Assembly: GCA_026692885.1 (NCBI GenBank)
Contig: JAPLNJ010001228.1
Location: 1-61,152, forward strand
Direction: 5' to 3'
Origin: Planctomycetota bacterium
GTDB taxonomy: Bacteria > Planctomycetota > Planctomycetia > Pirellulales > Pirellulaceae
DNA: 61,152 nucleotides
The notes under the pieces are model-generated. The model worked only from the letters and a program-made list of their open reading frames with translations. It was not told the origin of the DNA and did not search any database. Position numbers and translations under genes: made by a program. Positions within the stretch are counted from its first letter, which is position 1. Every line of letters begins with the position of its first letter. Below, piece by piece: positions 815 to 52,316 of the stretch.

Positions 815-3772
815 CTACTCCGCCAGCATCGCGGCCAGGCGTTGCCGCAGCTCGATCAACCGCTGCTCTTGCTGTTTGTCGAACGAGCCGAGTCGCTGGC
901 CGTAGCTATCCATCCAGTTGATCAGCCGACTCCAATCCTCGGTGGATAGCTGCACGTCGTAATGGCCCTGCTCCAGCAGCGGTATCAACGGGTTGGTGCC
1001 CGCGGCGCCGGCGCCGACCAGCGAACGGCCTTCCCCGTACCGGGCTCGGACGTGCTGGCGCAGGCTGGGCCGGCCGTAGTCCAGCAAGGCGGCGTAGGAC
1101 TTCTCGGCCGTCAGATCGAACTGCGGATCCTGGCCCTTGGGCTGATGGCAAGAGACACACTGCCGGTCCAGCATCGGCTGCACCAGGACCTGATAATCGA
1201 AGGGCCAGGAGCCGGCCGGCCCGGGCGTGATCTTCGAAGGCTCACGACGCATCGCCACCGGTGACGTGGCATTCCGCGGCGAAGTCGTGCGCGGCTCGTG
1301 GCAGCCGATACACGAAGCGCTCTGACCCGGCTGAACGTACGTGCCACTCCGCATCGTCTGGACGGCGATGCCGCGTTCGTCCAACGCCTGCAGGAAGAAC
1401 GTCACGCCGGCCGGCACGCGGAAATAGGCCGAGCCGTCCGCTTCCACGGGCACCGTACCCAGCACGAACTTGCCGGGATCGTCGTTCGTAACGCCCATAC
1501 TCGGACTGTTCATCACGGGATGCGTCTTGGGGGGCACGCCGATCAGTCGCAGCTGGCGGATCGAACCGCGCGGGATCGAGCCCAGACCCTCATACACGTT
1601 GACCAACAGCATCCGACCTTCCTGCGAGTCGGCCCAGTCGGCCGGCGAGGGCAGGCGGGGCGGCTGCTTTCGCGATTTGATCGGGAGCGGCGTCTCACTG
1701 CCGATGTCGGGATCGCGATACAGCAGGTTCAAGTTGCCGAAGCCATCGAACAGGTACAAACCGAGATCATTCATCGGTCCCGGCATACCCCATTGCGGTC
1801 GCGGCGTGCCGGGAGGCAGCGGCTGATGACTCCAGGACACCAGGTAATGTTCCTCGGACAGCGGATAGGCACCGGCGAAATAGGTCTGCGGCCAGCCTTC
1901 GGCTTCGGGGTAGCAGACTTCCGGCGTCAGTCGCGTGAGCGGCTCCACGCCATCAGGGCCCAACCGTGGGTCCAGCAACACCAACGGACCGCCTGTGTGG
2001 GCGTGGTGCCCGGAGGCGGTAAACACGATCTTGTGCGAATTCGGCACGGCGCGCGGCTCGAAACTGCAATGCGGACTGCGGACGAAGTTGCCCCAGACGA
2101 TCTGGGCGTTGGTGCCGTCCGGTAAGGTCGACCACAACTTCATGAACGGCATGTTGTGACGATCGACATAGTCCCAGCGGGAGTACAGGATCCGCCCTTC
2201 GTGGTCGATGCTGGGGGTCCACTCGAACATTTCGAACGGCGAGATTTGAACCAGATTGCCGCCGTCCGCGTCCACCGCGTGCAGCGTGTACACGGCCACC
2301 GGCCGTGACGCGTCGCCACCGCACCGGACGTAGCTGTCCGGCTGAGCGCCGTCGATGCACTCGGCGGCGCTGGCCTTGCCGCATTGCACGTATTGTCCGC
2401 GACGGGTGGACAGAAAAATGATCCGGCCGTCCGGCAGATAGCGACCGTCGAAATCGTCGTACTTGCCGTGCGTCAGCCGGCGTAGGCCGGTGCCATTGAG
2501 GTTGATTTCGTAAAGATGGTAGAACGCGTCTTCCGGCACATTGGCTTTGTTCAGTTTGTCGGGCTCGGCCGCCAGTCCGGGATAGTACTTGCAGTGTGCG
2601 AACAGGACTTTGCGACCGTCGTAGGACAAGTCGGGCCGCAGCACGTTGCCCAACGGCAGTTCGGTGCTCAGACAGCGCAGTTGGGGCGAGTCGCTTTTGA
2701 ACTTCTCCAGCACGAACAGCCCGCCGCCGGGCCGCGAGAACCAGCCGTAGTACTGGTCGGACATGTGCGTGAAGTTGCCCGGCGCGCGTTTCACGAACAG
2801 CAGATCCTCGAAGTCCAGCAGCGGATTGGCCAGCGTCAGCTGGCGCACCGCCCAGCGGGCCTGCAAATAAAGCTGCCGCCGCGTGGCATCTGCCGCAACA
2901 GGCTGGGAGGGCGAGGCTCCCGCCGAGCCGGCCTGCGCCGGCAACTTCTGCCAAGCCTCAACGGCTTGCTGCAGCACAGCGACTTGGCCAGCAACGTTGA
3001 CCCCGAGCATGCGCAGATTCTCGGCGAGCTTCAGGCCGCGTTCCACGACTTGGGGCAGCGGGTAGTTGAGGGGCGCGGCCACGATCATCTCGGCGGGCTG
3101 GGTGGTGGGAACGGGACCGTGGAGGACGGACCACTGGCTCGCGCTCGATTGGTCGGCCGGCTTGCCACGCGCGACATTCTCCGAACTACCGACGCGGTAG
3201 ACTTCCACCTCGTCCAGATGCAGATACTGCTGCTCCGGTAACTGAATTCGCACGAAGCGCGCCGGCGCAGCCTTCAAGAGCACGGTCAGTGGCAGGGTAT
3301 CCGGGCGGCCGAAGAACAGGCTCCCGTCATGCTGGTAGGCTGGTTGCCAGGCTTTGCCATCCTCCGAGAGCAGTACCTGGAGCCGCGCCGCGCGATCTTC
3401 GACCTTACCGTCGCACCGGTTGTAGATCAGCACCTTGTCCAAGGCGAGCGACGTGCCCAGATCCACCTGCCACCACGCTTTGGCGTCGGCGTTGGTATGG
3501 AATCCGTAAGTGCCCTGCTTGACACCATCGCAGCCGCCAGCTGCATCTTGTTGCGTAGTAACCGTCACCGCGGCCACGGCTGTCCCGTTCGACGGTGGCA
3601 GGTTCCGCACCACTTCCTGACGCAGCCAATCGGCCTCGATCTGTTCGCGGCTGATGACTGTCTTCGGTTCGGCACACACCGCGGTCGGCGGCCAGCACGT
3701 CGCCGCCATGGCCGTCGTCAACAGAAACCAAATTGCCGGACCAACACGGGCAGCGTTACCACACGAGCACAT
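815..3772 (-). CDS. HzsA-like secreted protein with discoidin domain and two CXXCH motifs
   Basis: A 985-residue exported protein. Residues 1 to about 34 form a signal peptide. Residues about 40-190 resemble a discoidin (F5/8 type C) carbohydrate-binding domain (W-W-Q-V-D-L-G, V-L-I-Y-N-R-C-D). The middle, about 330-700, is a TolB/PD40-like beta-propeller with repeated D-G-R-I-x-F/Y blades. It resembles the middle domain of the hydrazine synthase alpha subunit. Two CXXCH haem-binding motifs stand near residues 821 and 872. Such proteins are common in planctomycetes and are not evidence of anammox; the substrate is unknown. A paralogue lies at 8401-11628. The gene is convergent with the DUF1854 gene, with only 26 bases between stops. 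Confidence 0.8.
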   Translation of the reverse strand: MCSCGNAARVGPAIWFLLTTAMAATCWPPTAVCAEPKTVISREQIEADWLRQEVVRNLPPSNGTAVAAVTVTTQQDAAGGCDGVKQGTYGFHTNADAKAWWQVDLGTSLALDKVLIYNRCDGKVEDRAARLQVLLSEDGKAWQPAYQHDGSLFFGRPDTLPLTVLLKAAPARFVRIQLPEQQYLHLDEVEVYRVGSSENVARGKPADQSSASQWSVLHGPVPTTQPAEMIVAAPLNYPLPQVVERGLKLAENLRMLGVNVAGQVAVLQQAVEAWQKLPAQAGSAGASPSQPVAADATRRQLYLQARWAVRQLTLANPLLDFEDLLFVKRAPGNFTHMSDQYYGWFSRPGGGLFVLEKFKSDSPQLRCLSTELPLGNVLRPDLSYDGRKVLFAHCKYYPGLAAEPDKLNKANVPEDAFYHLYEINLNGTGLRRLTHGKYDDFDGRYLPDGRIIFLSTRRGQYVQCGKASAAECIDGAQPDSYVRCGGDASRPVAVYTLHAVDADGGNLVQISPFEMFEWTPSIDHEGRILYSRWDYVDRHNMPFMKLWSTLPDGTNAQIVWGNFVRSPHCSFEPRAVPNSHKIVFTASGHHAHTGGPLVLLDPRLGPDGVEPLTRLTPEVCYPEAEGWPQTYFAGAYPLSEEHYLVSWSHQPLPPGTPRPQWGMPGPMNDLGLYLFDGFGNLNLLYRDPDIGSETPLPIKSRKQPPRLPSPADWADSQEGRMLLVNVYEGLGSIPRGSIRQLRLIGVPPKTHPVMNSPSMGVTNDDPGKFVLGTVPVEADGSAYFRVPAGVTFFLQALDERGIAVQTMRSGTYVQPGQSASCIGCHEPRTTSPRNATSPVAMRREPSKITPGPAGSWPFDYQVLVQPMLDRQCVSCHQPKGQDPQFDLTAEKSYAALLDYGRPSLRQHVRARYGEGRSLVGAGAAGTNPLIPLLEQGHYDVQLSTEDWSRLINWMDSYGQRLGSFDKQQEQRLIELRQRLAAMLAE

Positions 3773-3807
3773 GGGAATTGCCTTTCACGCAAAGTCGAGC
3801 GGGGCAG

Positions 3808-3933
3808 GTAGGTCAGGCTTTCCAGCCTGACGTCTCCTTGTAGGTCAGGCTTTCCAGCCTGACATCTCCTTGTAGGTTAGGCTTTCCAGCCTGACATCGG
3901 GTTGTTGGAGTCAGGCTGGAAAGCCTGACCTAC
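3808..3933. repeat. Three tandem 32-bp palindromic units plus one inverted copy
   Basis: A unit beginning GTAGGTCAGGCTTTCCAGCC starts at 3808, 3840 and 3872, an exact 32-base period. An inverted copy lies at 3910-3933. Each unit holds a perfect hairpin (CAGGCT, TTCC, AGCCTG). The array lies between the HzsA-like gene and the 3' end of rnpB and could act as a terminator. Related units occur near 8347 and 28003. Confidence 0.8.
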
Positions 3934-3955
3934 GCCGCGCGTTCCTCCGAAATAA

Positions 3956-4375
3956 GGTCTCGAAGTGGATCTGTAAGCCGGGTTCTGTACCTCGCAGCGC
4001 GAGGTGATGGTCATTTCTCTAGGACACCCGTTTGCACGGCGCCTCCAGCGACCTACCCGGGAGTCGATGGCGAGCCGGACCGGCTCGCGGCGGTTTGCAC
4101 CGCCTGCTCCCTGTTTGGTCTTGCTCCGGGTGGGGTTTACCAAACCAATCGAGTCGCCTCGACTGCTGGTGCGCTCTTACCGCACCATTTCACCCTTACC
4201 TGAGCTACAGGAACACATTTGTTCCGGCAGCCATCGGCGGTATGTTTTCTGTGGCACTATCCCTAGCCTCACGGCCGGTCGTCGTTATCGACCACCCTGT
4301 CCTGCGGAGCCCGGACTTTCCTCTCGCTCTGGCCCTAAGGCCAGAACCAGCGACCATCCGATCCACTTCGAGACC
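3956..4375 (-). ncRNA. rnpB: RNase P RNA (class A)
   Basis: This is the catalytic RNA of RNase P, which matures tRNA 5' ends. On the minus strand the ends pair as a perfect 16-bp P1 helix (GGTCTCGAAGTGGATC at 4375-4360 with GATCCACTTCGAGACC at 3971-3956). Conserved core segments are present: GAGGAAAGTCCGGGCTCC near the 5' side, ACAGAAAACATACCGCC, GGTAAACCCCACCCGGAGCA, and AGAACCCGGCTTACAGATCC just before the 3' P1 strand. The length of about 420 nt is normal for a bacterial A-type RNA. The ends are set by P1, so they could shift by a few bases. Confidence 0.95.
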
Positions 4376-5778: not shown

Positions 5779-5831
5779 CCCGACTCGCCAGCTGCCCGCC
5801 ACCGGAGGCGGCGGGCAGCCGGCGAGTCGGG
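5779..5831. repeat. 22-bp-arm hairpin after the M14 gene
   Basis: Arms 5779-5800 and 5810-5831 pair with one mismatch around a 9-base loop. It begins 57 bases after the M14 stop codon and may terminate transcription, although there is no T-run. Confidence 0.7.
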
Positions 5832-5881: not shown

Positions 5882-6152
5882 CGACTTACGTCTTTGAAGT
5901 TGCGCATTTTCATGGTCCCCACCCGGCCCCGTGCCGGTGGAGGTAGGTTTGGCGACTAGGCGTCGCCCGCGCCGTGGCATGCCCGTTCCGCGCTTGCCGC
6001 CGGACCGCCGCCAGCGACGGCGGTCCGGCGGCAAGGGCGGAACGGGCGCCGTTTTGTGGGGTTCCGCATAGTTTTCAAACCTGTTTCCACCGACGCGGGG
6101 TCGGTGGGGCAGTCGTCGGAACCAAAATGCGCAACTTCAAAGACTTACGTCG
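5882..6152. repeat. 271-bp palindromic element with terminal and central inverted repeats
   Basis: Ends 5882-5910 and 6124-6152 are inverted repeats matching at 27 of 29 positions. Inside, 5981-6010 and 6018-6047 form a 30-bp-arm hairpin with one mismatch and a 7-base loop. There is no transposase gene. The layout resembles a small non-autonomous element or a large folded RNA or DNA repeat. No target duplication was identified. Confidence 0.65.
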
Positions 6153-6340
6153 GGAGCTTCTCGGGGGCGATCACGACACTGCGAGCATTTCGCAACGTTA
6201 TGATCAAGGCCAGCGAGCATCGTCGCTCGATTTGATTTTTTCACAGCCTGGGAGCCAGGGAACGCGAGAATCCGGGAGGCCCGGGAGAAACGTGCCCCCT
6301 CTTTTCTCGCGAACCGGCAGAGAGGAAGATGGTCCGGGAC

Positions 6341-6450
6341 ACACTCGCCCGACGCGCAAGCGAGGGTGGCAACGACAACTTCCTACCAGGAATCTGGGTG
6401 TAAGCCGCCGCACCGCCAACCCCACCCTCGCTGGTGCGTCGGGTCAGTGT
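6341..6450. repeat. 29-bp inverted repeat pair upstream of the patatin gene
   Basis: 6341-6369 and 6422-6450 match in inverted orientation at about 25 of 29 positions (core CCCGACGC and GCGAGGGTGG). They end about 50 bases before the patatin start codon and could influence its transcription. Confidence 0.6.
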
Positions 6451-6500
6451 GGGTACACGATTCCTGTTCGCTTGTCATAATGTCTTAAGCCGGGGCAGAC

Positions 6501-23407: not shown

Positions 23408-23546
23408 GGGGGATTCCTTGTTGTTCATCCTGTTTTCGTTTTGGTTGACAAAAAGATGGGGAGAATCCCACGTTCCGAAGGAACATTTTTTTGTCATCAA
23501 TGTTTTTGTCCTCTCCGTTCCGAGTGCTAAGTACTGGATCGTCGGT

Positions 23547-23614
23547 ACGTGGGATAGGCTTCCAGCCTGTCATGTTTTCACGCAGGAAATTGACAGGCTG
23601 GAAGCCTATCCTAC
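23547..23614. repeat. GGATAGGCTTCCAGCCTGTC palindromic element
   Basis: The arms GGATAGGCTTCCAGCCTGTC (23552-23571) and its exact complement (23592-23611) enclose a 20-base loop. The same element sits inside the SEFIR gene at 34457-34521. Here its right arm supplies the last codons and stop codon of the CHAT-type fragment, so the element either truncated that gene or became its end. Confidence 0.85.
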
Positions 23615-24178: not shown

Positions 24179-24686
24179 GATTCCATGCCCCTTTCGGCAG
24201 TCCTGGCGAACCCTTGACCCACGCCTGCCAATCTGCTTCACCGTCCAAACAAGCGGAACGGGGTCGCTCCGCTTCGGCTTGGGATCGGAGCCGAAACAAA
24301 ACCGGCATTTATCCGGCATCCCGGACTTCCTCTTTTCTTATCCGTGCCCCGGCCTTGCCATCCGTGCTAACCATGACCTGAATAGCAGGGATGGCAAAGC
24401 CGGGGCACGGATGAGGAGTGACCCAACTTCACCGTTTGTTAGCCAATTGCAGGAGTTATTTCAGCCTCGTGCCTCGCTCGTCCCACCCTGCCATACAACG
24501 AACGGCCCAAGTTAGCGCATTTTCGTCGAACCTGCAAGTCGGAACATGGCCTCTTCGCCCTCGTGAGGCGAGTTCCCGAGGGGATGCGTTCCCGGCCGGA
24601 TGCGCTGCCACGTCACGGTATCCGGGCTCCAGAAAAGCCTCCAGTTCACGGACAACATTCCATCTTCGGAAAGGTATCTGCTTCGA
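24179..24686. other. Spacer with one strong hairpin
   Basis: The first part may still be decayed coding DNA of the CHAT-type gene (read up to 24319). A hairpin occupies 24338-24414. The rest, to the end of the PD40 gene at 24687, shows nothing I can name. Confidence 0.5.
24338..24414. repeat. 31-bp-arm hairpin, ATCCGTGCCCCGG family
   Basis: 24338-24368 and 24384-24414 pair with about three mismatches around a 15-base loop. The same family occurs at 8223-8282. It could terminate transcription; its recurrence suggests a dispersed repeat. Confidence 0.75.
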
Positions 24687-27559: not shown

Positions 27560-28006
27560 ATGACTACGGTATTCAAGACCGCATACGAGTCGTTACTTCT
27601 GGACTACTTGCCGCGCCCGGTTCGCACGCAGCGCGAGTACGAGCTGGCTTGCCGTCAGATTGCCAGGCTGATGAGTGGGGGTCCGGAACTGCCCCAGGCC
27701 GAGAGCGAATTGCTCGAAATCCTTTCGCTCCTCGTGGCGCAATACGAATCCGCGGACCACTCGATCCGCGATGCCTCGCCAGCCGAGATGTTGGCCTTCC
27801 TGATCGATGCGCGGGGCGTGAGCAACGCCGCGGTGGCTCGCGAAACTAGGATTCCCCGCTCGGTGATTACCGATATTCTGGCGGGGCGGCGCGGCGTCAG
27901 CACGGCGAACGTGGCCAAGCTCGCCAAGTACTTCCATGTGTCTCCAGCCGTGTTTATCGCCGAGCCGGCCTCGCAAGGCGAGCGGCAGGAAATAACTTAC
28001 CCGTAG
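27560..28006 (+). CDS. higA: HigA-family antitoxin with HTH domain
   Basis: A 148-residue antitoxin. The N-terminal half (Y-E-L-A-C-R-Q-I, L-L-E-I-L-S-L-L-V-A-Q-Y-E) is the helical part that in this subfamily contacts the toxin. The C-terminal half is an XRE-type helix-turn-helix (N-A-A-V-A-R-E-T-R-I-P-R-S-V-I-T-D-I-L-A-G-R-R), expected to bind the operator at 27125-27145. It has its own GGGAGG site. The last residues (G-E-R-Q-E-I-T-Y-P) are encoded by the left arm of a 111-base palindrome that continues past the stop, so the natural C-terminus may have been replaced. Confidence 0.88.
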   Translation: MTTVFKTAYESLLLDYLPRPVRTQREYELACRQIARLMSGGPELPQAESELLEILSLLVAQYESADHSIRDASPAEMLAFLIDARGVSNAAVARETRIPRSVITDILAGRRGVSTANVAKLAKYFHVSPAVFIAEPASQGERQEITYP

Positions 28007-28087
28007 GTCGGCCCTTCCAGGCCGATCGGGACGGTCTTGGAAGACCATCCTACCTTAAGTCGGGTAAGTTATTTCCTGCCGCTCGCC
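27977..28087. repeat. 27-bp perfect inverted repeat overlapping the higA end
   Basis: 27977-28003 and 28061-28087 are exact inverted complements (27 of 27). The 57-base interior holds a GTAGGTCGGCCCTTCCAGGC palindrome and an inverted GGTCTTGGAAGACC. Without a transposase gene, it looks like a small mobile repeat with terminal inverted repeats, or an elaborate terminator. Confidence 0.85.
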
Positions 28088-29040: not shown

Positions 29041-31368
29041 ATGACTACCAGAACTGAAACCCTCTGCACCGTGTTGCCGGGCCGCTCCGGCAGTCACTCC
29101 AACCTTGGCTTGCGCCTTTGCCGCGCTGCTGCCTTCCGGTGGGCCTTGATGTTCCTGGCGACGGCCTCGTTCACCCGACTGGCACAAGCAGCCAGCACCT
29201 CGGCGGAAGAAAACGCCCGCTGGCTGGCGCAAATCGAGCCGCGGATCAAGGCGATTTACGAAAGGGACGAGTTTGCCATACGCTCCTTCACTGCGACTTG
29301 GCTACCGGATGGCTCGGGTTATCTGAAGTTGGAGACGCCGGCCGGCGCGTCCGTAGTGGAGGTCGCGTGCTACGATGCCGCCGACGGCCAACGCACCGTC
29401 GTGGTGCCCACTGAGAAACTCGTCGTCCCCGGCAGCTCGCAGCCGCTGATGCTCTGGTGGTTCCAGCGTGCGCCGTCGGGTAACCGGTTCTTGTTGCACG
29501 GGGACATCACCGAAGGCAAGCGCCGGAGCGGCCATTGGCTGTATGAGCCCGAGTCGGGTGCGTTGCGCCCGGTAGATGACGGTCCCGGACTTTGGTTTGA
29601 TGCGAATGCCTTTTCGCCGGATGGCCAGCGGCTTCTGGCTACCCGCGGCGCAGACTTGATCGTGTTCGACATTGCCAGCGGCCGGACGATTCCGCTGACC
29701 AAGGACGGCGATCCGGGGACCATCGAAAACGGCCACCGGGCCTGTTGGAGTCCCGACGGTCAATGGATCGCCTATATCCAGTCCGACTCCTCGGCCGTCC
29801 CGAAACGGGCGGTCCTGGTGCCCGGCGACCCGACCTATCGCACCTTCCGGGAACAACGCTATGAACGGATCGGCGGGCCGATTTCCACCTTCCGCATCGG
29901 CGTCGTGGGCGTCGAAGGCGGTCCCACGCGCTGGATCGGGCTGGCCGACAAACCGGGGACCTTCTACCTCAACCAAGCGAGCTGGGCCGGGAATTCCGAC
30001 GAATTGCTGGTCGAGAAATTGAGCCGCTACCGGGATGCACGGCAATTCCTGCTCGTCAACCATCGCACCGGCGTGATCGCCAAAGTCTACGCGGAAACCG
30101 ATCCCGCCTGGGTGGATGCGAATATGTCGACCAACGGAGGACTGGAGTGGGTTCGCGGCGGCCGGGCCTCGGTCATTATCAGTGAGCGGGACGGCTGGCG
30201 GCGCGCGTATGTCGTCTCACGGGACGGCTCGGACATGACGCCGATCACTCCGGCGGGCAGCGATCTGATCGCGCGCGGCCAAGTGGATGACAAGAACGGA
30301 TGGTTCTACTATGACGCCTCGCCGGCCAACGCGACGCAACGCTACCTCTACCGCGCGCGCCTGGATGGAACCGGCGCGCCCGAACGGTTGACGCCGCCGG
30401 ACCAGCCTGGCTCGCACCGCTATGTGTTTTCCCCCGACAGCCTTTGGGCGTTCCACACGTATTCCACCTTCGACAAGCCGCCGGTGAACGATCTGGTGCA
30501 ACTGCCGGAGCATCGGAGCGTGCGTGTGCTGGAGGACAACGCCACTTTGGCTGCCCGGGTGAAGCCCCTCATCACGCGGCCGACCGAGTTCCTCCAACTC
30601 GACATCGGCGGCGGCGTGGTGATGGACGCATGGATGATCAAACCACGCGATTTCGATTCCGCGAAGAAGTATCCGGTTTTCGTGTACATCTATGGCGAGC
30701 CGGCCGGACAAACGGTGCTGGACGACTGGCGCGGCGGGGGGCACGCCCTCTTTCACCGGGCGGTGGCCGATCTGGGCTATCTTGTGGTTTCGATGGACAA
30801 TCGGGGCACGCCGGCGCCCAAGGGGGCGGCGTGGCGGCGGGCGGTGTTTGGCAGCCTGGGGCCGCTCTCGACCGAGGAGCAGGCCGCGGGCCTGAAAGCG
30901 CTGGCGCGTCTCTGCCCTTTCGTGGACCTTTCGCGCGTGGCGATCTGGGGCTGGAGCGGCGGCGGCTCGAACACGCTCAACGCGATGTTCCGCAAGCCGG
31001 ACGTTTACCACGTGGGCATTGCGGTCGTGCCGAAGCCGCAGCCGCAGTACTACAACGCCTGGTATCAGGAGATTTACATGCGCACGCCGAAGGACAATCC
31101 CGAGGGCTACCGCACCTGCGCGCCGATCACTTACGCCGAGGGGTTGCGCGGCGACCTGCTGATCATTACCGGGTCGGGCGAAACCAACACGCACATCGAG
31201 ATCACGGAAGGGCTGGTGGACCGGCTCATCGCCTTGGGAAAAAGCTTCGACTACTTCGTCTATCCCAATCGCGACCACGGGCTCCATGAGGGCGTGGGGA
31301 CGGATGTTCACGTGCGCATGTTGATGGCCCGGTATCTCATGGAACACCTGCCTCCGGGGCCGCGTTGA
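29041..31368 (+). CDS. S9-family prolyl-oligopeptidase/DPP-IV-like peptidase
   Basis: A 775-residue exported serine peptidase. The signal region is long (hydrophobic core about 33-52). Residues about 60-480 form the DPP-IV-type propeller (blade S-P-D-G-Q-W-I-A-Y-I). The alpha/beta-hydrolase domain has G-W-S-G-G-G-S with nucleophile S639 and D-H-G-L-H with H746. At the place of the third catalytic residue, where DPP-IV has G-x-x-D-D-N-V-H, this protein has G-S-G-E-T-N-T-H, that is Glu instead of Asp. It may still be active, but this should be noted. The family removes dipeptides, usually after proline or alanine. The next gene starts 30 bases downstream. Confidence 0.87.
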   Translation: MTTRTETLCTVLPGRSGSHSNLGLRLCRAAAFRWALMFLATASFTRLAQAASTSAEENARWLAQIEPRIKAIYERDEFAIRSFTATWLPDGSGYLKLETPAGASVVEVACYDAADGQRTVVVPTEKLVVPGSSQPLMLWWFQRAPSGNRFLLHGDITEGKRRSGHWLYEPESGALRPVDDGPGLWFDANAFSPDGQRLLATRGADLIVFDIASGRTIPLTKDGDPGTIENGHRACWSPDGQWIAYIQSDSSAVPKRAVLVPGDPTYRTFREQRYERIGGPISTFRIGVVGVEGGPTRWIGLADKPGTFYLNQASWAGNSDELLVEKLSRYRDARQFLLVNHRTGVIAKVYAETDPAWVDANMSTNGGLEWVRGGRASVIISERDGWRRAYVVSRDGSDMTPITPAGSDLIARGQVDDKNGWFYYDASPANATQRYLYRARLDGTGAPERLTPPDQPGSHRYVFSPDSLWAFHTYSTFDKPPVNDLVQLPEHRSVRVLEDNATLAARVKPLITRPTEFLQLDIGGGVVMDAWMIKPRDFDSAKKYPVFVYIYGEPAGQTVLDDWRGGGHALFHRAVADLGYLVVSMDNRGTPAPKGAAWRRAVFGSLGPLSTEEQAAGLKALARLCPFVDLSRVAIWGWSGGGSNTLNAMFRKPDVYHVGIAVVPKPQPQYYNAWYQEIYMRTPKDNPEGYRTCAPITYAEGLRGDLLIITGSGETNTHIEITEGLVDRLIALGKSFDYFVYPNRDHGLHEGVGTDVHVRMLMARYLMEHLPPGPR

Positions 31369-32334: not shown

Positions 32335-32714
32335 ATCGCTGGTCAATCAGCCGCAGCACGAGTGCGAGATCGAGGCCATCCGACGCTGCATCCGGCGCGG
32401 GCAACCATTCGGCAGAAATAGTGGGGTAAGCATCCTGCTTGCCTTTCGATTCATCGCGTCAATCGCAAGCTGGAAGCTTACGCCACCGCATCGGTTACCC
32501 CAAGATTGAGCCTTGAAGACGCACTAGCAATACGACCCAATGCCAACCGCGCGCGGTATCTGTACCGCAGCGGACCCTTGTCTCAAAGCCGGGCGGGGGT
32601 CAGAATACGTGTCAACCTGGAGACCGGCCGTTTTGGCTCGCAGACGCTCGAGCACGTCTGCGTCCTGAAGCGGAACGACCGGACGTGCCCCCGATTCCGA
32701 CGGGACCGACACCG
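32335..32714. other. Spacer with a GTGGCGTAAGC-family hairpin
   Basis: An imperfect hairpin at 32421-32486 (arms of 22 bases, about four mismatches) belongs to the GTGGCGTAAGCTTCCAGC family also seen at 35940 and 52151. No gene is recognised before the ATG at 32715. Confidence 0.55.
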
Positions 32715-35700
32715 ATGAGCGAAATCACCGTCTTCATCAGCTACAGCCACGATTCCGACGCCCACCGCGAGCGGGTGCTCGCGCTCTCCGAACGCTTGCG
32801 TAAGGACGGTATCGACACCGTCCTCGACCAGTATGTGAACGGTGCGCCGCCGCAGGGCTGGCCGCGGTGGATGCTCGACCAACTGGATGCCGCCGCGTTC
32901 GTGCTCGTGATTTGCACCGCGACCTACTACCGCCGTTTCCGCGGCCATGAAGTTCCGGGGCAGGGCAAAGGGGTGGATTGGGAAGGCGCGCTCATCACGC
33001 AGGAGATTTATGACCAGCGCAGCACGACGCTGAAGTTCGTCCCCGTCCTCTTGTCTGCGGACGCAGACGGGTTCATTCCCGAGCCGCTGCGAAGTTTGAC
33101 GCGGTACGCACTGACAGCGGAAGCGGCTTATCAGAGCCTGTACGATTTCCTGCTCGGCCAAGCCGGCGCGGAGGCTGGACCTGTGGGATCGCTCAAGACC
33201 AAGGCCAAGCGGAAGGCCGCGCCGCTGACGTTTGGCGACGAACCCGCCAAACGGCCGGCCGAGGCCGACATCTCCCGCATCATCAAGTACGCCCCGGCGG
33301 AACTGGTCGGGCGCGAGGCGGAGACGAAGATTCAGGCCGCTGCCTGGGAACAGGCGGTCAGCGGCGAAACGAAACGCCCACACGTGCTCACGTTCGTCGC
33401 GCTGGGGGGCGAGGGGAAGACGTCGCTGGTGGCGAAGTGGGCGGCCGATTTGGCGCATCGGGACTGGCCGGGGTGCGAGGCGGCTTTCGCGTGGTCGTTC
33501 TACAGCCAGGGGACGCGGGAGCAACTGGCGGCTTCGTCCGACTTGTTTTTGGCGGCGGCCCTGACCTTCTTCGGCGATCCGGAGACGGCGGCCAGTGCGC
33601 AGGGGGCGTTCGACAAAGGCTGGCGGCTGGCCCAGCTGGTGGGCCAGCGGCGGGCGCTGCTCGTCCTAGATGGCCTGGAGCCGCTGCAATACGCGCCCAC
33701 CGCGCCCACGCCAGGCGAACTGAAGGACCAGGGCCTCGCCGCCCTGCTCAAAGGGCTGGCCGGCAGCAGTCGCGGCCTGTGCGTGATCACCACTCGGTAT
33801 TCGATCCCGGATTTGAAAGCCTTCTGGCAGACCACCGCGCCGGAGCACGTATTGAAGCGGCTGTCCTTGGCCGCCGGCGTGGCGCTGCTCAGGAAACTCG
33901 GCGTGCAGGGAAGTGAGCGGCCAGGCGCTAGCCGCCGGTCCGAACCGACACGCGACCCGCGGCTAGCGCCTGGCGGCTCACAAGCGCTGAACGAATTTGA
34001 GCAGTTGGTCGAGGATGTGCGGGGCCACGCGCTCACCTTGAACCTGCTCGGCAGTTACCTGCACGACGCCCACGCCGGGGACATCCGCAAACGCGATCTC
34101 GTGAAGCTGGCGGAAGCCGACGCCGAGGAACAGGGCGGCCACGCCTTCCGGGTCATGGATGCGTATGCGCAGTCGTTGGAGCGCGAGGGGGCGAAAGGCC
34201 AACGCGCCCTGGCCGTGCTGCGGCTGCTGGGGTTGTTCGACCGGCCCGCGGCGGGCGACTGCCTGGCCGCGTTGCTGGAACCGCCCGCGATTCCGGGCCT
34301 GACCGACGTGCTGGTCGGGATGAGCGAGGCGCAGCGGAACGTGGTTTTCACGCGGCTGGCGACTGCGAAGCTGCTGACCGTGAACCGGGACGCGGCCGGG
34401 ACGTTGGTCTCGCTGGATGCGCACCCGCTGATCCGCGAGTATTTCGCGAAGCAATTACGTGGGATAGGCTTCCAGCCTGTCATTGATCCGGGGAATAACA
34501 GGCTGGAAGCCTATCCCACGTGGCGGGCGGCGCACCGGCGGCTGTACGAACACCTCTGCGCGAGCACGAAGGACAAGCCCGACGCCACCCTCGAAGACCT
34601 CCAACCGCTCTACCAAGCCGTGGCCCACGGCTGCCAGGCGGGATTGCAAGAGGAAACGCTTGCCAAGGTTTACCGCGACCGCATCCTTCGCGGCGGAGAA
34701 CACTACACATGGCACAAACTCGGGGCCTACGGTTCAGAGTTGGGTGCACAAGCCTGCTTCTTCGAGCAACCTTGGACCCGTCTGTCGCCGGTCATCACTG
34801 AGAGCGGTCAAGCCTGGCTGCTGAACGAAGCCGCCTTCTGCCTGCGTGCCTTGGGCCGGCTGACCGAGGCCCTCGAGCCGATGCGGATGTCGGGGGAGAT
34901 GGACGTCAAAGTGGAGCAGTGGAAAGGCTCGGCCATCAGCTACAGCAACCTGAGCGAGCTGGAGCTGACGCTGGGCGAGGTGGCCGGGGCGGTGGGGGAC
35001 GCCTCGCGTAGCGTGACCTACGCCGACCGCAGCGGCGATGCGTTTGATTCGATGGACCACCGCACGACCCATGCCGACGCCCTGCACCAGGCGGGCCGCC
35101 GGGCCGAGGCGGAGGCGCGCTTCCGCGAGGCCGAGCAGATGCAGGCCGAGAGCCAGCCCGCCTACCCGCTGCTGTATTCCCTGCCGGGCTTCCGGTATTG
35201 CGACCTGCTCTTGGCCGACGCCGAGCGTGCCGCGTGGGGGAGGACTCACGCAAAGACGCAAAGCCGCGAAGAAGACCTTTGCGTCTTAGCGCCTTTGCGT
35301 GAGATCTTGGAAGCCTGCCACACCGTCGCCCAGCGCGCGACGCAGACACTCGAGTGGGTTGAGTCGTGGCAGAAAGACGTCCTCAGCGCTGCCCTCGACC
35401 ACCTCACCCTGGGCCGCGCCACGCTGTACGCGGCGATCCTTCAGGAATCTCCCCTCTCAAATCTGAAATCTGAAATGGAACAGGCCGTGTCCGGCCTCCG
35501 CCGCGCCAATCGCAGCGACTATCTCCCGCGAGCCCTCCTCACCCGCGCCTGGCTGCGGCTTCTCACGGCGGCGCGCACCGGCCCCGAGAGCGCGCAGAGC
35601 GACCTGGACGAAGCCCGGGAAATCGCCGAACGCGGACCGATGCCGTTGTTCCTCGCCGACATCCGGCTCAGCCGAGTACGGCTGTTTGGAAGTTTGAAGT

Positions 35701-35861
35701 GTGAAGTAGGAAGTGGGAAAGAAGAGGAGAAATATCCGTGGGAGTCGCCGGAACATGACCTGGCCGAGGCGCGGCGGCTGATCGAGAAACACGGCTACGG
35801 GCGGCGGAAGGAAGAACTGGAAGAGGCGGAACTCGTGATCCTCGGCCCACCCGAGCCCTGA
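32715..35861 (+). CDS. SEFIR-domain STAND NTPase with TPR-like C-terminus
   Basis: About 1048 residues from the ATG at 32715. Residues 1-140 are a SEFIR domain (V-F-I-S-Y-S-H-D-S-D, then V-L-V-I-C-T-A-T-Y-Y), related to TIR signalling domains. Residues about 200-500 are a STAND/NB-ARC-type NTPase: P-loop G-G-E-G-K-T-S with K235, Walker B L-L-V-L-D-G-L-E. A helical TPR-like region follows (about 640-1048). In bacteria this architecture is associated with phage defence or programmed response. The gene carries several dispersed repeats in frame: about residues 400-423, 581-603, 844-864, and likely 913 and 993. The reading frame survives all of them. It lies alone between repeat-bearing spacers. 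Confidence 0.85.
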   Translation: MSEITVFISYSHDSDAHRERVLALSERLRKDGIDTVLDQYVNGAPPQGWPRWMLDQLDAAAFVLVICTATYYRRFRGHEVPGQGKGVDWEGALITQEIYDQRSTTLKFVPVLLSADADGFIPEPLRSLTRYALTAEAAYQSLYDFLLGQAGAEAGPVGSLKTKAKRKAAPLTFGDEPAKRPAEADISRIIKYAPAELVGREAETKIQAAAWEQAVSGETKRPHVLTFVALGGEGKTSLVAKWAADLAHRDWPGCEAAFAWSFYSQGTREQLAASSDLFLAAALTFFGDPETAASAQGAFDKGWRLAQLVGQRRALLVLDGLEPLQYAPTAPTPGELKDQGLAALLKGLAGSSRGLCVITTRYSIPDLKAFWQTTAPEHVLKRLSLAAGVALLRKLGVQGSERPGASRRSEPTRDPRLAPGGSQALNEFEQLVEDVRGHALTLNLLGSYLHDAHAGDIRKRDLVKLAEADAEEQGGHAFRVMDAYAQSLEREGAKGQRALAVLRLLGLFDRPAAGDCLAALLEPPAIPGLTDVLVGMSEAQRNVVFTRLATAKLLTVNRDAAGTLVSLDAHPLIREYFAKQLRGIGFQPVIDPGNNRLEAYPTWRAAHRRLYEHLCASTKDKPDATLEDLQPLYQAVAHGCQAGLQEETLAKVYRDRILRGGEHYTWHKLGAYGSELGAQACFFEQPWTRLSPVITESGQAWLLNEAAFCLRALGRLTEALEPMRMSGEMDVKVEQWKGSAISYSNLSELELTLGEVAGAVGDASRSVTYADRSGDAFDSMDHRTTHADALHQAGRRAEAEARFREAEQMQAESQPAYPLLYSLPGFRYCDLLLADAERAAWGRTHAKTQSREEDLCVLAPLREILEACHTVAQRATQTLEWVESWQKDVLSAALDHLTLGRATLYAAILQESPLSNLKSEMEQAVSGLRRANRSDYLPRALLTRAWLRLLTAARTGPESAQSDLDEAREIAERGPMPLFLADIRLSRVRLFGSLKCEVGSGKEEEKYPWESPEHDLAEARRLIEKHGYGRRKEELEEAELVILGPPEP
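33913..33981. repeat. Palindromic repeat inside the SEFIR gene (copy 1)
   Basis: Arms 33913-33939 and 33955-33981 pair with two mismatches in 27. They encode an Arg/Pro-rich insert (E-R-P-G-A-S-R-R-S-E-P-T-R-D-P-R) between the NTPase core and the following helices. The composition is unlike the flanking protein. Confidence 0.85.
34457..34521. repeat. Palindromic repeat inside the SEFIR gene (copy 2)
   Basis: 28-base arms 34457-34484 and 34494-34521 pair with one mismatch. Its sequence is almost the same as the intergenic element at 23547. It encodes G-I-G-F-Q-P-V-I-D-P-G-N-N-R-L-E-A-Y-P-T without a stop. Confidence 0.9.
35244..35306. repeat. CACGCAAAG-type repeat inside the SEFIR gene (copy 3)
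   Basis: ACTCACGCAAAGACGCAAAG and the inverted GCGCCTTTGCGTGAG form an imperfect hairpin. It encodes T-H-A-K-T-Q-S-R-E-E-D-L-C-V-L-A-P-L-R-E in the TPR-like region. Similar CACGCAAAG palindromes are widespread in bacterial intergenic DNA. Confidence 0.75.
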
Positions 35862-52069: not shown

Positions 52070-52316
52070 CTTGGCGAGCTCATGCGCACGCTGGAACGGC
52101 TGGGCATCCGCGTGCCGGGCAAAGTCCGGTTAGCACGGTTCGAGAAACAAGTGGCGTAAGCTTCCAGCTTTCGATGCCACTTTATACCGCAACCTGGAAG
52201 CTTAAGCCACGGAGCCATCGGAAAGATTTCCCGAACGGTGCTTGGTGGGCTTCCACGACGGGAAGTACGCCACGCTGCTGTCCGTGCCGCTGACGACGAT
52301 CCACCAACCCGAATAG
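52070..52316 (+). pseudogene. LacI-family regulator relic split by a palindrome
   Basis: 52070-52150 reads L-G-E-L-M-R-T-L-E-R-L-G-I-R-V-P-G-K-V-R, like the segment before the last strand pair of LacI-type sugar regulators. 52239-52316 reads V-G-F-H-D-G-K-Y-A-T-L-L-S-V-P-L-T-T-I-H-Q-P, the next LacI segment (usually G-F-D-D). Between them sits the repeat at 52151-52210, and the first half stops on a TAA inside it. No DNA-binding domain is left. Given its place beside GH32, it may once have controlled fructan genes. Confidence 0.6.
52151..52210. repeat. GTGGCGTAAGCTTCCAGC palindromic element
   Basis: 20-base arms 52151-52170 and 52191-52210 pair with two mismatches around a 20-base loop. Related copies are at 32421-32486 and 35940 (half). 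It interrupts the LacI relic. Confidence 0.8.

Follow-up and report, generated by a model that had tools for sequence, protein, structure and literature searches.

How does the gene of a putative immune-type protein come to contain several palindromic repeats within one open frame? This question is raised by a SEFIR-STAND-TPR-like gene in a stretch of 61,152 nt from a Planctomycetota bacterium (assembly GCA_026692885.1, contig JAPLNJ010001228.1), the whole of which is hereafter called the window. Three palindromes, named A, B and C, and two heptamer tandem arrays lie inside this gene (Table 1). We consider it probable, at about 0.8, that insertion of mobile palindromes and of heptamer repeats is widespread and that the loops of the SEFIR-STAND family tolerate them in frame, repeatedly. 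The palindromes would enter as hairpin arms of short repetitive extragenic palindromes (REPs), mostly tagged with GTAG or GTGG and two of them head to head, which for dimers like B we take to be the arrangement termed REPIN (REP doublet forming hairpin). They were probably moved by Y1 transposases of the REP-associated tyrosine transposase (RAYT) type, which may also have acted in this host, and the heptamer arrays probably spread through slippage or recombination. Such insertions would land widely, copies that were out of frame, bore stops or disrupted the core would be lost, and the survivors, presumably near-neutral, would be those that kept the frame open within some seven permissive loops after residue 390.

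Palindromes and heptamer arrays in the open frame

The preliminary description of the window had noted three clear palindromes in one open frame, and the inverted-repeat search recovered all three, refining C to 35245-35303. The arms of A (33913-33940 and 33954-33981) and B (34457-34484 and 34494-34521) are both 28 nt long and match at 93% and 96%, respectively, and those of C (35245-35271 and 35277-35303) are 27 nt long and match at 85%. Their scores were 25 for B, 22 for A and 15 for C. Among 300 codon shuffles of the gene, 214 had no inverted repeat scoring at least 11, and the top scores were 17 (once) and 15 (once). Chance was ruled out as the origin of A and B, whose scores exceed those of all 300 shuffles. 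For C, the score taken by itself borders on chance, 15 being reached in 2 of the 300 shuffles, yet its arm is multicopy in other genomes. None of the palindromes introduces a stop, as had also been proposed, and each lies in the sole stop-free frame of the three forward frames.

A second copy of B is present elsewhere in the window. The first arm of B is identical to this copy over 28 of 28 nt, where 0 such matches are expected by chance, and the second arm has one mismatch in a 20-nt core; the near-identity claimed for B and an element at 23547 therefore holds for the arms and fails for the spacers, which differ. One end of the copy is tagged GTGG and the other, read on the opposite strand, GTAG.

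Two further stretches of the gene, at about 35450-35480 and 35690-35725, had been put forward as likely palindromes. No inverted repeat of at least 10 nt was reported at either place, and as palindromes both were rejected; heptamer tandem repeats occupy them instead, at 35455-35476 in loop D and 35688-35719 in loop E.

Table 1. Positions of the gene, its repeats and the control gene in the window
Feature	Position	Strand	Description
SEFIR-STAND-TPR-like gene	32715-35861	+	intact open frame, ATG 32715, 1048 aa
Palindrome A	33913-33981	+	GTGAG-ended inverted pair; residues ~400-423, loop after NTPase core
Palindrome B	34457-34521	+	GTGG-tagged REP-like head-to-head dimer (REPIN-like); residues ~582-603
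Palindrome C	35245-35303	+	CTCACGCAAAGACGCAAAG inverted pair; residues ~844-863, hypervariable loop
Heptamer tandem repeat	35455-35476	+	TCTGAAA x3.1; loop D
Heptamer tandem repeat	35688-35719	+	GGAAGTG x4.6; loop E
Second copy of palindrome B	23546-23614	.	outside called ORFs; ends GTGG and GTAG
DPP-IV peptidase	29041-31368		control family

In the 1048-aa protein, the domain profile search placed SEFIR (PF08357, E 7.5e-15) and TIR_2 above the cut-off, NACHT below it (23.5 bits against 26.7) and TPR_12 as a weak match, also below. The PADLOC profile for bSEFIR (PDLC03957) matched residues 1-164 with E 4.4e-43 over profile positions 35-197, or 163 of its 412 positions. A Walker A-like GGEGKTS at residues 231-237 is intact and is invariant or nearly so across the family alignment, and LLVLDGLEPL lies downstream of it. 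The STAND assignment leans partly on such motifs and is in that respect presumed. With SEFIR and TIR_2 above and NACHT under the cut-off, the earlier call of an immune-type STAND protein appears right, and the gene would encode an immune-type SEFIR-STAND protein, its function being judged from sequence. The open reading frame (ORF) listing starts the SEFIR-STAND-like ORF at an upstream GTG at 32685, which would give 1058 aa.

The repeats are multicopy in other genomes

Copies of A, B and C were counted in the genomes of relatives and homologues of the gene. In the genome of the planctomycete homologue L032 (G001), the B arm had 35 matches at up to 2 mismatches, with 0 for the reversed control. 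At up to 1 mismatch it was found in 11 of 61 genomes of one planctomycete family, with a maximum of 149 matches. Across 199 genomes of the phylum, the C arm was found in 14 at up to 1 mismatch (maximum 145 matches) and the A arm in 4 at up to 2 mismatches (maximum 25, in G123; one match for the reversed control). A, B and C are thus dispersed multicopy repeats taken up in frame, and the absence of these repeats elsewhere, named beforehand as a possible outcome, did not occur.

As to repeat type, a GTGG tag was present in 90 of 97 B arms at up to 1 mismatch, each B arm forms a hairpin, and two arms stand head to head in B, as in a GTAG-type REP or REPIN. Dispersed copies, another mark of this type, occur in relatives and in the homologues' own genomes. 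A, which like B has the build of a REP pair, ends in GTGAG, and C is without such a tag, so neither carries the GTAG-type tag. The ends seen among the arms that were read were GTAG, GTGG, GGAG or others.

The candidate transposase link comes from G123, where a weak RAYT-like Y1_Tnp match at 659435-659722 (E 1.3e-4) is flanked by A-type copies at 659355 and 659916 that are inverted relative to each other. The flanking arm and the A arm of the query agree in 27 of 28 bases. It is the flanking arrangement alone that informs on the link, because each of the 20 genomes searched had Y1_Tnp genes, among them 6 without a B match.

Loop length and turnover among homologues

Homologues of the query numbered 5559 at E<=1e-20 among 7998 scored. 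The alignment comprised 163 sequences, namely the query, the best 120 of these homologues and 42 of 47 loci from the genome scan. In the query and in its close relative P0001, loop A spans 29 aa, the main modes elsewhere being 5, 18 and 21 aa; in near outgroups (for example, P0002, P0003, P0005, P0007, P0008 and P0009) it is about 5 aa, as would be expected had A been inserted as roughly 70 bases. Loop B has 27 aa in the query versus 13 aa in 137 of 159 sequences, and part of the native loop was replaced there. All 153 sequences with both anchors have 17 to 95 aa of varied kinds in loop C, with the query's C peptide in none of those shown; segment C is hence not a clean insertion, and the loop is hypervariable across the family. 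For loop D, the 17 aa of the query is the commonest length (66 of 154), and loop E has 15 aa in the query versus 5 aa in 91 of 151 sequences. The expectation that homologues would be without exactly these segments was accordingly borne out for A, which is absent, and for B, where the loop is shorter, and not for C.

The A and B peptides of the query recur in P0001 alone, which fits inheritance, as the two proteins are close relatives with 89% backbone identity; carriage of the same peptides by homologues free of repeat DNA was not found. Loop identity between the two was 1.00 for A, 0.96 for B and 0.94 for D, versus 0.19 for C and 0.32 for E, and loop C of P0001 holds a different repeat-like peptide (LECGG...PPHSK). 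Loop sequence thus turns over in a protein that itself persists. Among 297 insertions of at least 8 aa at positions common to at least two sequences, only 30 fall at residues 1-390, 11 of those in a linker at 175, and the others cluster after residues 402, 490-492, 582-600, 846, 913, 954-959, 991 and 1011. Many of the clustered insertions, chiefly those at 402, 913 and 1011, are length variants of the family's own and not repeats.

The replacement of loops C and E while loops A, B and D were kept, together with insertion hot spots beyond the SEFIR domain and the NTPase core, could also be read as adaptive diversification, in which positive selection favours the uptake of repeats into the C-terminal sensor part because new loops alter recognition, so that the family keeps up with phages. 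Loose loops account for the same pattern, and we regard such selection as unlikely. The preliminary description had offered both possibilities, that the repeats diversify the sensor or are tolerated in loose linkers; tolerance in loose loops has direct support, and diversification draws on the fast loop turnover as an indirect indication.

Another possibility is that the gene is decaying into a pseudogene on which repeats simply pile up; in its favour, 12 of the 47 loci are without a single open frame across the matched stretch. One of them, the planctomycete homologue L032, has the same B arm at loop B (2577-2600), and its reading frame is broken there. In the other 35, a single open frame covers all of the matched stretch, although some of these are short pieces at contig ends; the query is open over 1048 codons, with the three palindromes each in the sole open frame, and its Walker A-like motif is intact. 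We therefore consider decay very improbable.

In other parts of the family, P0064, P0067 and P0073 are longer homologues of 1355-1706 aa with an added nucleoside phosphorylase domain (PF01048), and one Verrucomicrobia assembly has four family matches (L003, L020, L035 and L041) on four contigs.

Different repeats recur at the same loops

Strong palindromes were searched for in 46 homologue frames, and 11 were found at the set threshold, none of them within residues 1-390. By the original loop definitions, eight lie in B, C or D; of the other three, two are at residues 489-492 and one is at 951-959; the last two sites were named loops F and G only after the palindromes had been mapped there. 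Seven of the 11 have GTAG in the first 11 bases of both arms. A shuffle test of loop DNA, which took in only loci whose loops passed a length cut-off, gave self-complementarity above all 40 shuffles for loop B in L014, L008, L045 and L006, for loop D in L003, and for loop C in L003, L025, L029, L006, L045, L008, L005, L009, L012 and L011. No such excess was seen for loop B of L030, for loop C of L013 or L027, for the 10 remaining D loops that were tested or for any of the 11 E loops. In BLAST comparisons, loop B of L008 and loop C of L025 were the same repeat (28/28 nt), loop D of L010 matched the reversed loop E of L029 (31/33 nt), and loop C of L029 matched sequence beyond the gene in L006 (50/51 nt).

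The arms of four loop palindromes were then sought in 18 genomes, allowing up to 2 mismatches (up to 3 for the L025 arm), and all four were repeated in the genome of the gene that carries them: 134 matches for L003 in G008, 110 for L037 in G004 (most with 2 mismatches), 36 for L014 in G014 and 22 for L025 in G012. Reversed controls gave 0, save for single matches in four genomes in the search with the L014 arm. The loops thus seem to be filled from the repeats of the current host. The arms occur in non-host genomes as well, G010 having 94 matches to the L003 arm and 45 to the L014 arm, the latter mostly GGAG. In G004, nine listed GTAG-type repeat arms cluster within 1.5 kb (C278, 2783-4298).

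A bolder possibility is that an immune sensor family builds its recognition loops from the host's mobile palindromes and heptamers, the loops being rebuilt from the new host's repeats after horizontal transfer; sensor surfaces would then be host-specific without dedicated diversity machinery. We hold this to be a long shot.

At the peptide level, a repeat class defined by motif was found in at least one of the seven loops in 79 of 163 sequences. Loop C carried such classes in 63 of 153 sequences, with about 50 label changes on the backbone tree, and loop B in 14 of 159, with 11 changes; the motifs were chosen after the STAND loops had been viewed, and these counts are indicative. One class, GRG_GEG, also matches Walker A (188 matches outside the loops) and was counted within the 79 but dropped from the comparison of families below. 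A dictionary of peptides was also drawn from 32 palindromes outside ORFs, using only 40 background stretches. At 26 bits or more, 18 of the 20 places that it matched in STAND proteins fell in the seven loops versus 1 of 5 for reversed peptides, and the top match had an E of 7e-6 in STAND versus 0.007 in the control family. The control family had more places overall (59), 56 of which were one conserved seven-residue chance match.

Heptamer-type arrays, too, recur in these loops. With the query counted, 6 of 35 sequences had significant arrays in loop D and 4 of 34 in loop E; at a score of at least 12 there were 6 in loop D and 2 in loop E, and 3 in 1500 background segments. An 18-mer related to loop D was found in 6 of 20 genomes (3 matches for the reversed control, all in G016), and a 19-mer of the loop E heptamer had matches in 0 of the 20 genomes searched. 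These arrays bear on whether the palindromes act as nucleic acid, in the form of mRNA hairpins or regulatory sites, with the peptides incidental. REPs are thought to work as RNA elements elsewhere (Di Nocera et al. 2013, PMC3733652). The heptamer arrays of loops D and E are not palindromic and yet occupy the same kind of place, and position tracks the protein loops rather than the distance to the gene ends, which makes a nucleic-acid role the least probable of the explanations considered.

Repeat uptake is general, with more in the SEFIR-STAND family

We compared the family with a background of 628.8 kb in 40 hand-chosen stretches of 18 genomes, where 557 kb of ORFs contained 10 strong palindromes and the remainder contained 32. 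Against these same-genome ORFs, the 11 strong palindromes in 122.5 kb of family frames gave a density ratio of 5.0 (P 0.0004). Insertions were likewise counted in 121 sequences per family: the STAND family had 223 of at least 8 aa, 22 of them of a repeat class, versus 84 and 2 for DUF7133 and 7 and 1 for the DPP-IV peptidase. Capture is general, but the SEFIR-STAND family carries more.

That uptake is limited to STAND or defence genes was rejected, since the B repeat is present in DUF7133/cytochrome c, S9, VIT and PSD proteins. These, with one TIR_2 protein, are among its carriers in G001, and kinase, FtsX and DNA methylase genes carry other strong palindromes in related genomes. Altogether, 85 B-type elements were examined in 80 stretches of four planctomycete genomes, and 36 lie in greedily called ORFs of at least 100 aa, many of them doubtful. 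The suggestion that the sensor gene accumulates repeats thus held in that the repeats are present, while the gene is not their sole taker. Single instances include a B repeat that precedes, in frame, the TIR domain in a protein of 350 aa (L138, 2596-3645) and one inside a type I restriction specificity protein (L167 in G443, 2027-3985). Two DUF7133 inserts of repeat class stand at nearly the same loop, one in P0252 (near alignment residue 648) and the other, a different one, being the B repeat in L125, hinting that permissive loops common to different repeats exist in other families too.

The same data touch again on positive selection for new sensor loops. A palindrome density excess of 3-5 fold, and the TIR_2 and type I restriction specificity proteins that carry a B repeat, count in its favour; against it, the B repeat is also carried by other large proteins, and the paired DUF7133 inserts are a case of loop sharing.

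Several observations weigh against the favoured reading. The copy numbers of A, B and C come from relatives, none from the actual host genome. The Y1_Tnp match beside the A-type repeats is weak, at 24.5 bits for a cut-off of 23, its presence in 20 of 20 genomes is shared by the 6 lacking B, and no listed Y1_Tnp match adjoins any listed copy of B or C. The A-type copies of G123 offer no clear in-gene cases, 12 of 23 being in called ORFs that are mostly short or entered near an end. The loops and the peptide classes were defined after inspection, and a weaker palindrome of L003 (score 15, below the threshold) falls in the NTPase region, at residues 243-297. Taking flanking ORFs as the reference (9 in 300 kb) lowers the density ratio to 3.0 (P 0.013), and counting the common insertion of L008 and L045 once lowers it to 3.7 against all other ORFs (P 0.002); 3 of the 9 flanking palindromes (two at L030, one at L032) are within the tblastn match of broken family members. 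Capture is not specific to the family, as 10 of 22 B elements in G001 lie in ORFs of at least 350 aa with the family copy excluded. Whole-protein motif counts also separate the families poorly (STAND 65, DUF7133 56 and DPP-IV 9 of 121 each), 42 of the 56 in DUF7133 coming from one class that is probably a conserved DUF7133 motif.

Relation to known elements and defence families

Palindromes within ORFs have been described before. According to Di Nocera et al. 2013 (PMC3733652), GTAG/CGTC REPs within ORFs are tagged palindromes, over half of them in dimers or groups, that encode 20-30 aa; GTAG repeats are known there from the Planctomycetes-Verrucomicrobia-Chlamydiae (PVC) superphylum, with many intragenic in Opitutus terrae and a link to RAYT. 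The same paper reports different REPs at about one site in recB of two Xanthomonas species, and its authors suggest linkers or loops. B resembles these elements in having tagged hairpin arms, head to head, inside an ORF. The genes given for intragenic GTAG/CGTC REPs in that report (PMC3733652) are varied, many being of DNA repair, whereas here several loops of one immune-type family are refilled by different repeats of the host genome, with heptamer arrays in addition.

Rickettsia palindromic elements (RPEs) are likewise palindromic DNA in frame in protein genes (PMC10969869, PMC3733652). Their length was put at about 150 bp when they were first reported, and they are described as ending in CGTC (PMC3733652), unlike the palindromes of the query, which are 59-69 bp, and the mostly GTAG- or GTGG-type ends found here. 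The QMITEs of Coxiella are mobile inverted-repeat elements that at times lie in frame inside ORFs; they form a family of miniature inverted-repeat transposable elements (MITEs) from one species, and the portion of that report available describes no fixed-loop recurrence (PMC5896051). Among defence families, bSEFIR (PADLOC PDLC03957) shares the N-terminal SEFIR domain with the query and differs in that the match leaves out the NTPase and C-terminal part of the latter.

We found no report in the open-access literature of recurrent repeat capture at fixed loops of an immune-type family. In-frame REPs and RPEs are known already; what appears to be new is that an immune-type family has captured repeats time and again in a fixed set of loops. 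This immune-type protein occurs in many phyla, and in bacteria as distant as planctomycetes, verrucomicrobia and acidobacteria its loops have repeatedly turned such repeats into coding sequence, which supplies a natural series of loop swaps with which to ask whether a STAND sensor simply tolerates the insertions or detects something else because of them. Peptides derived from repeats can also mislead protein alignments and domain calls.

Other inverted repeats in the window

The window is rich in short inverted repeats. Nine strong palindromes were counted in its 61,152 nt, namely A and B in the gene, two in a doubtful 168-aa frame and five outside called ORFs, C being just under the threshold of strength used for these and the density counts. 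Palindromes outside long frames were seen at 3840-3933 (starting with GTAG), 5779-5831, 24340-24412, 27977-28087 (with perfect 27-nt arms) and 52151-52210. The 168-aa frame, at 5974-6477, contains two strong inverted repeats (5981-6047 and 6340-6451) and may be repeat DNA rather than a gene.

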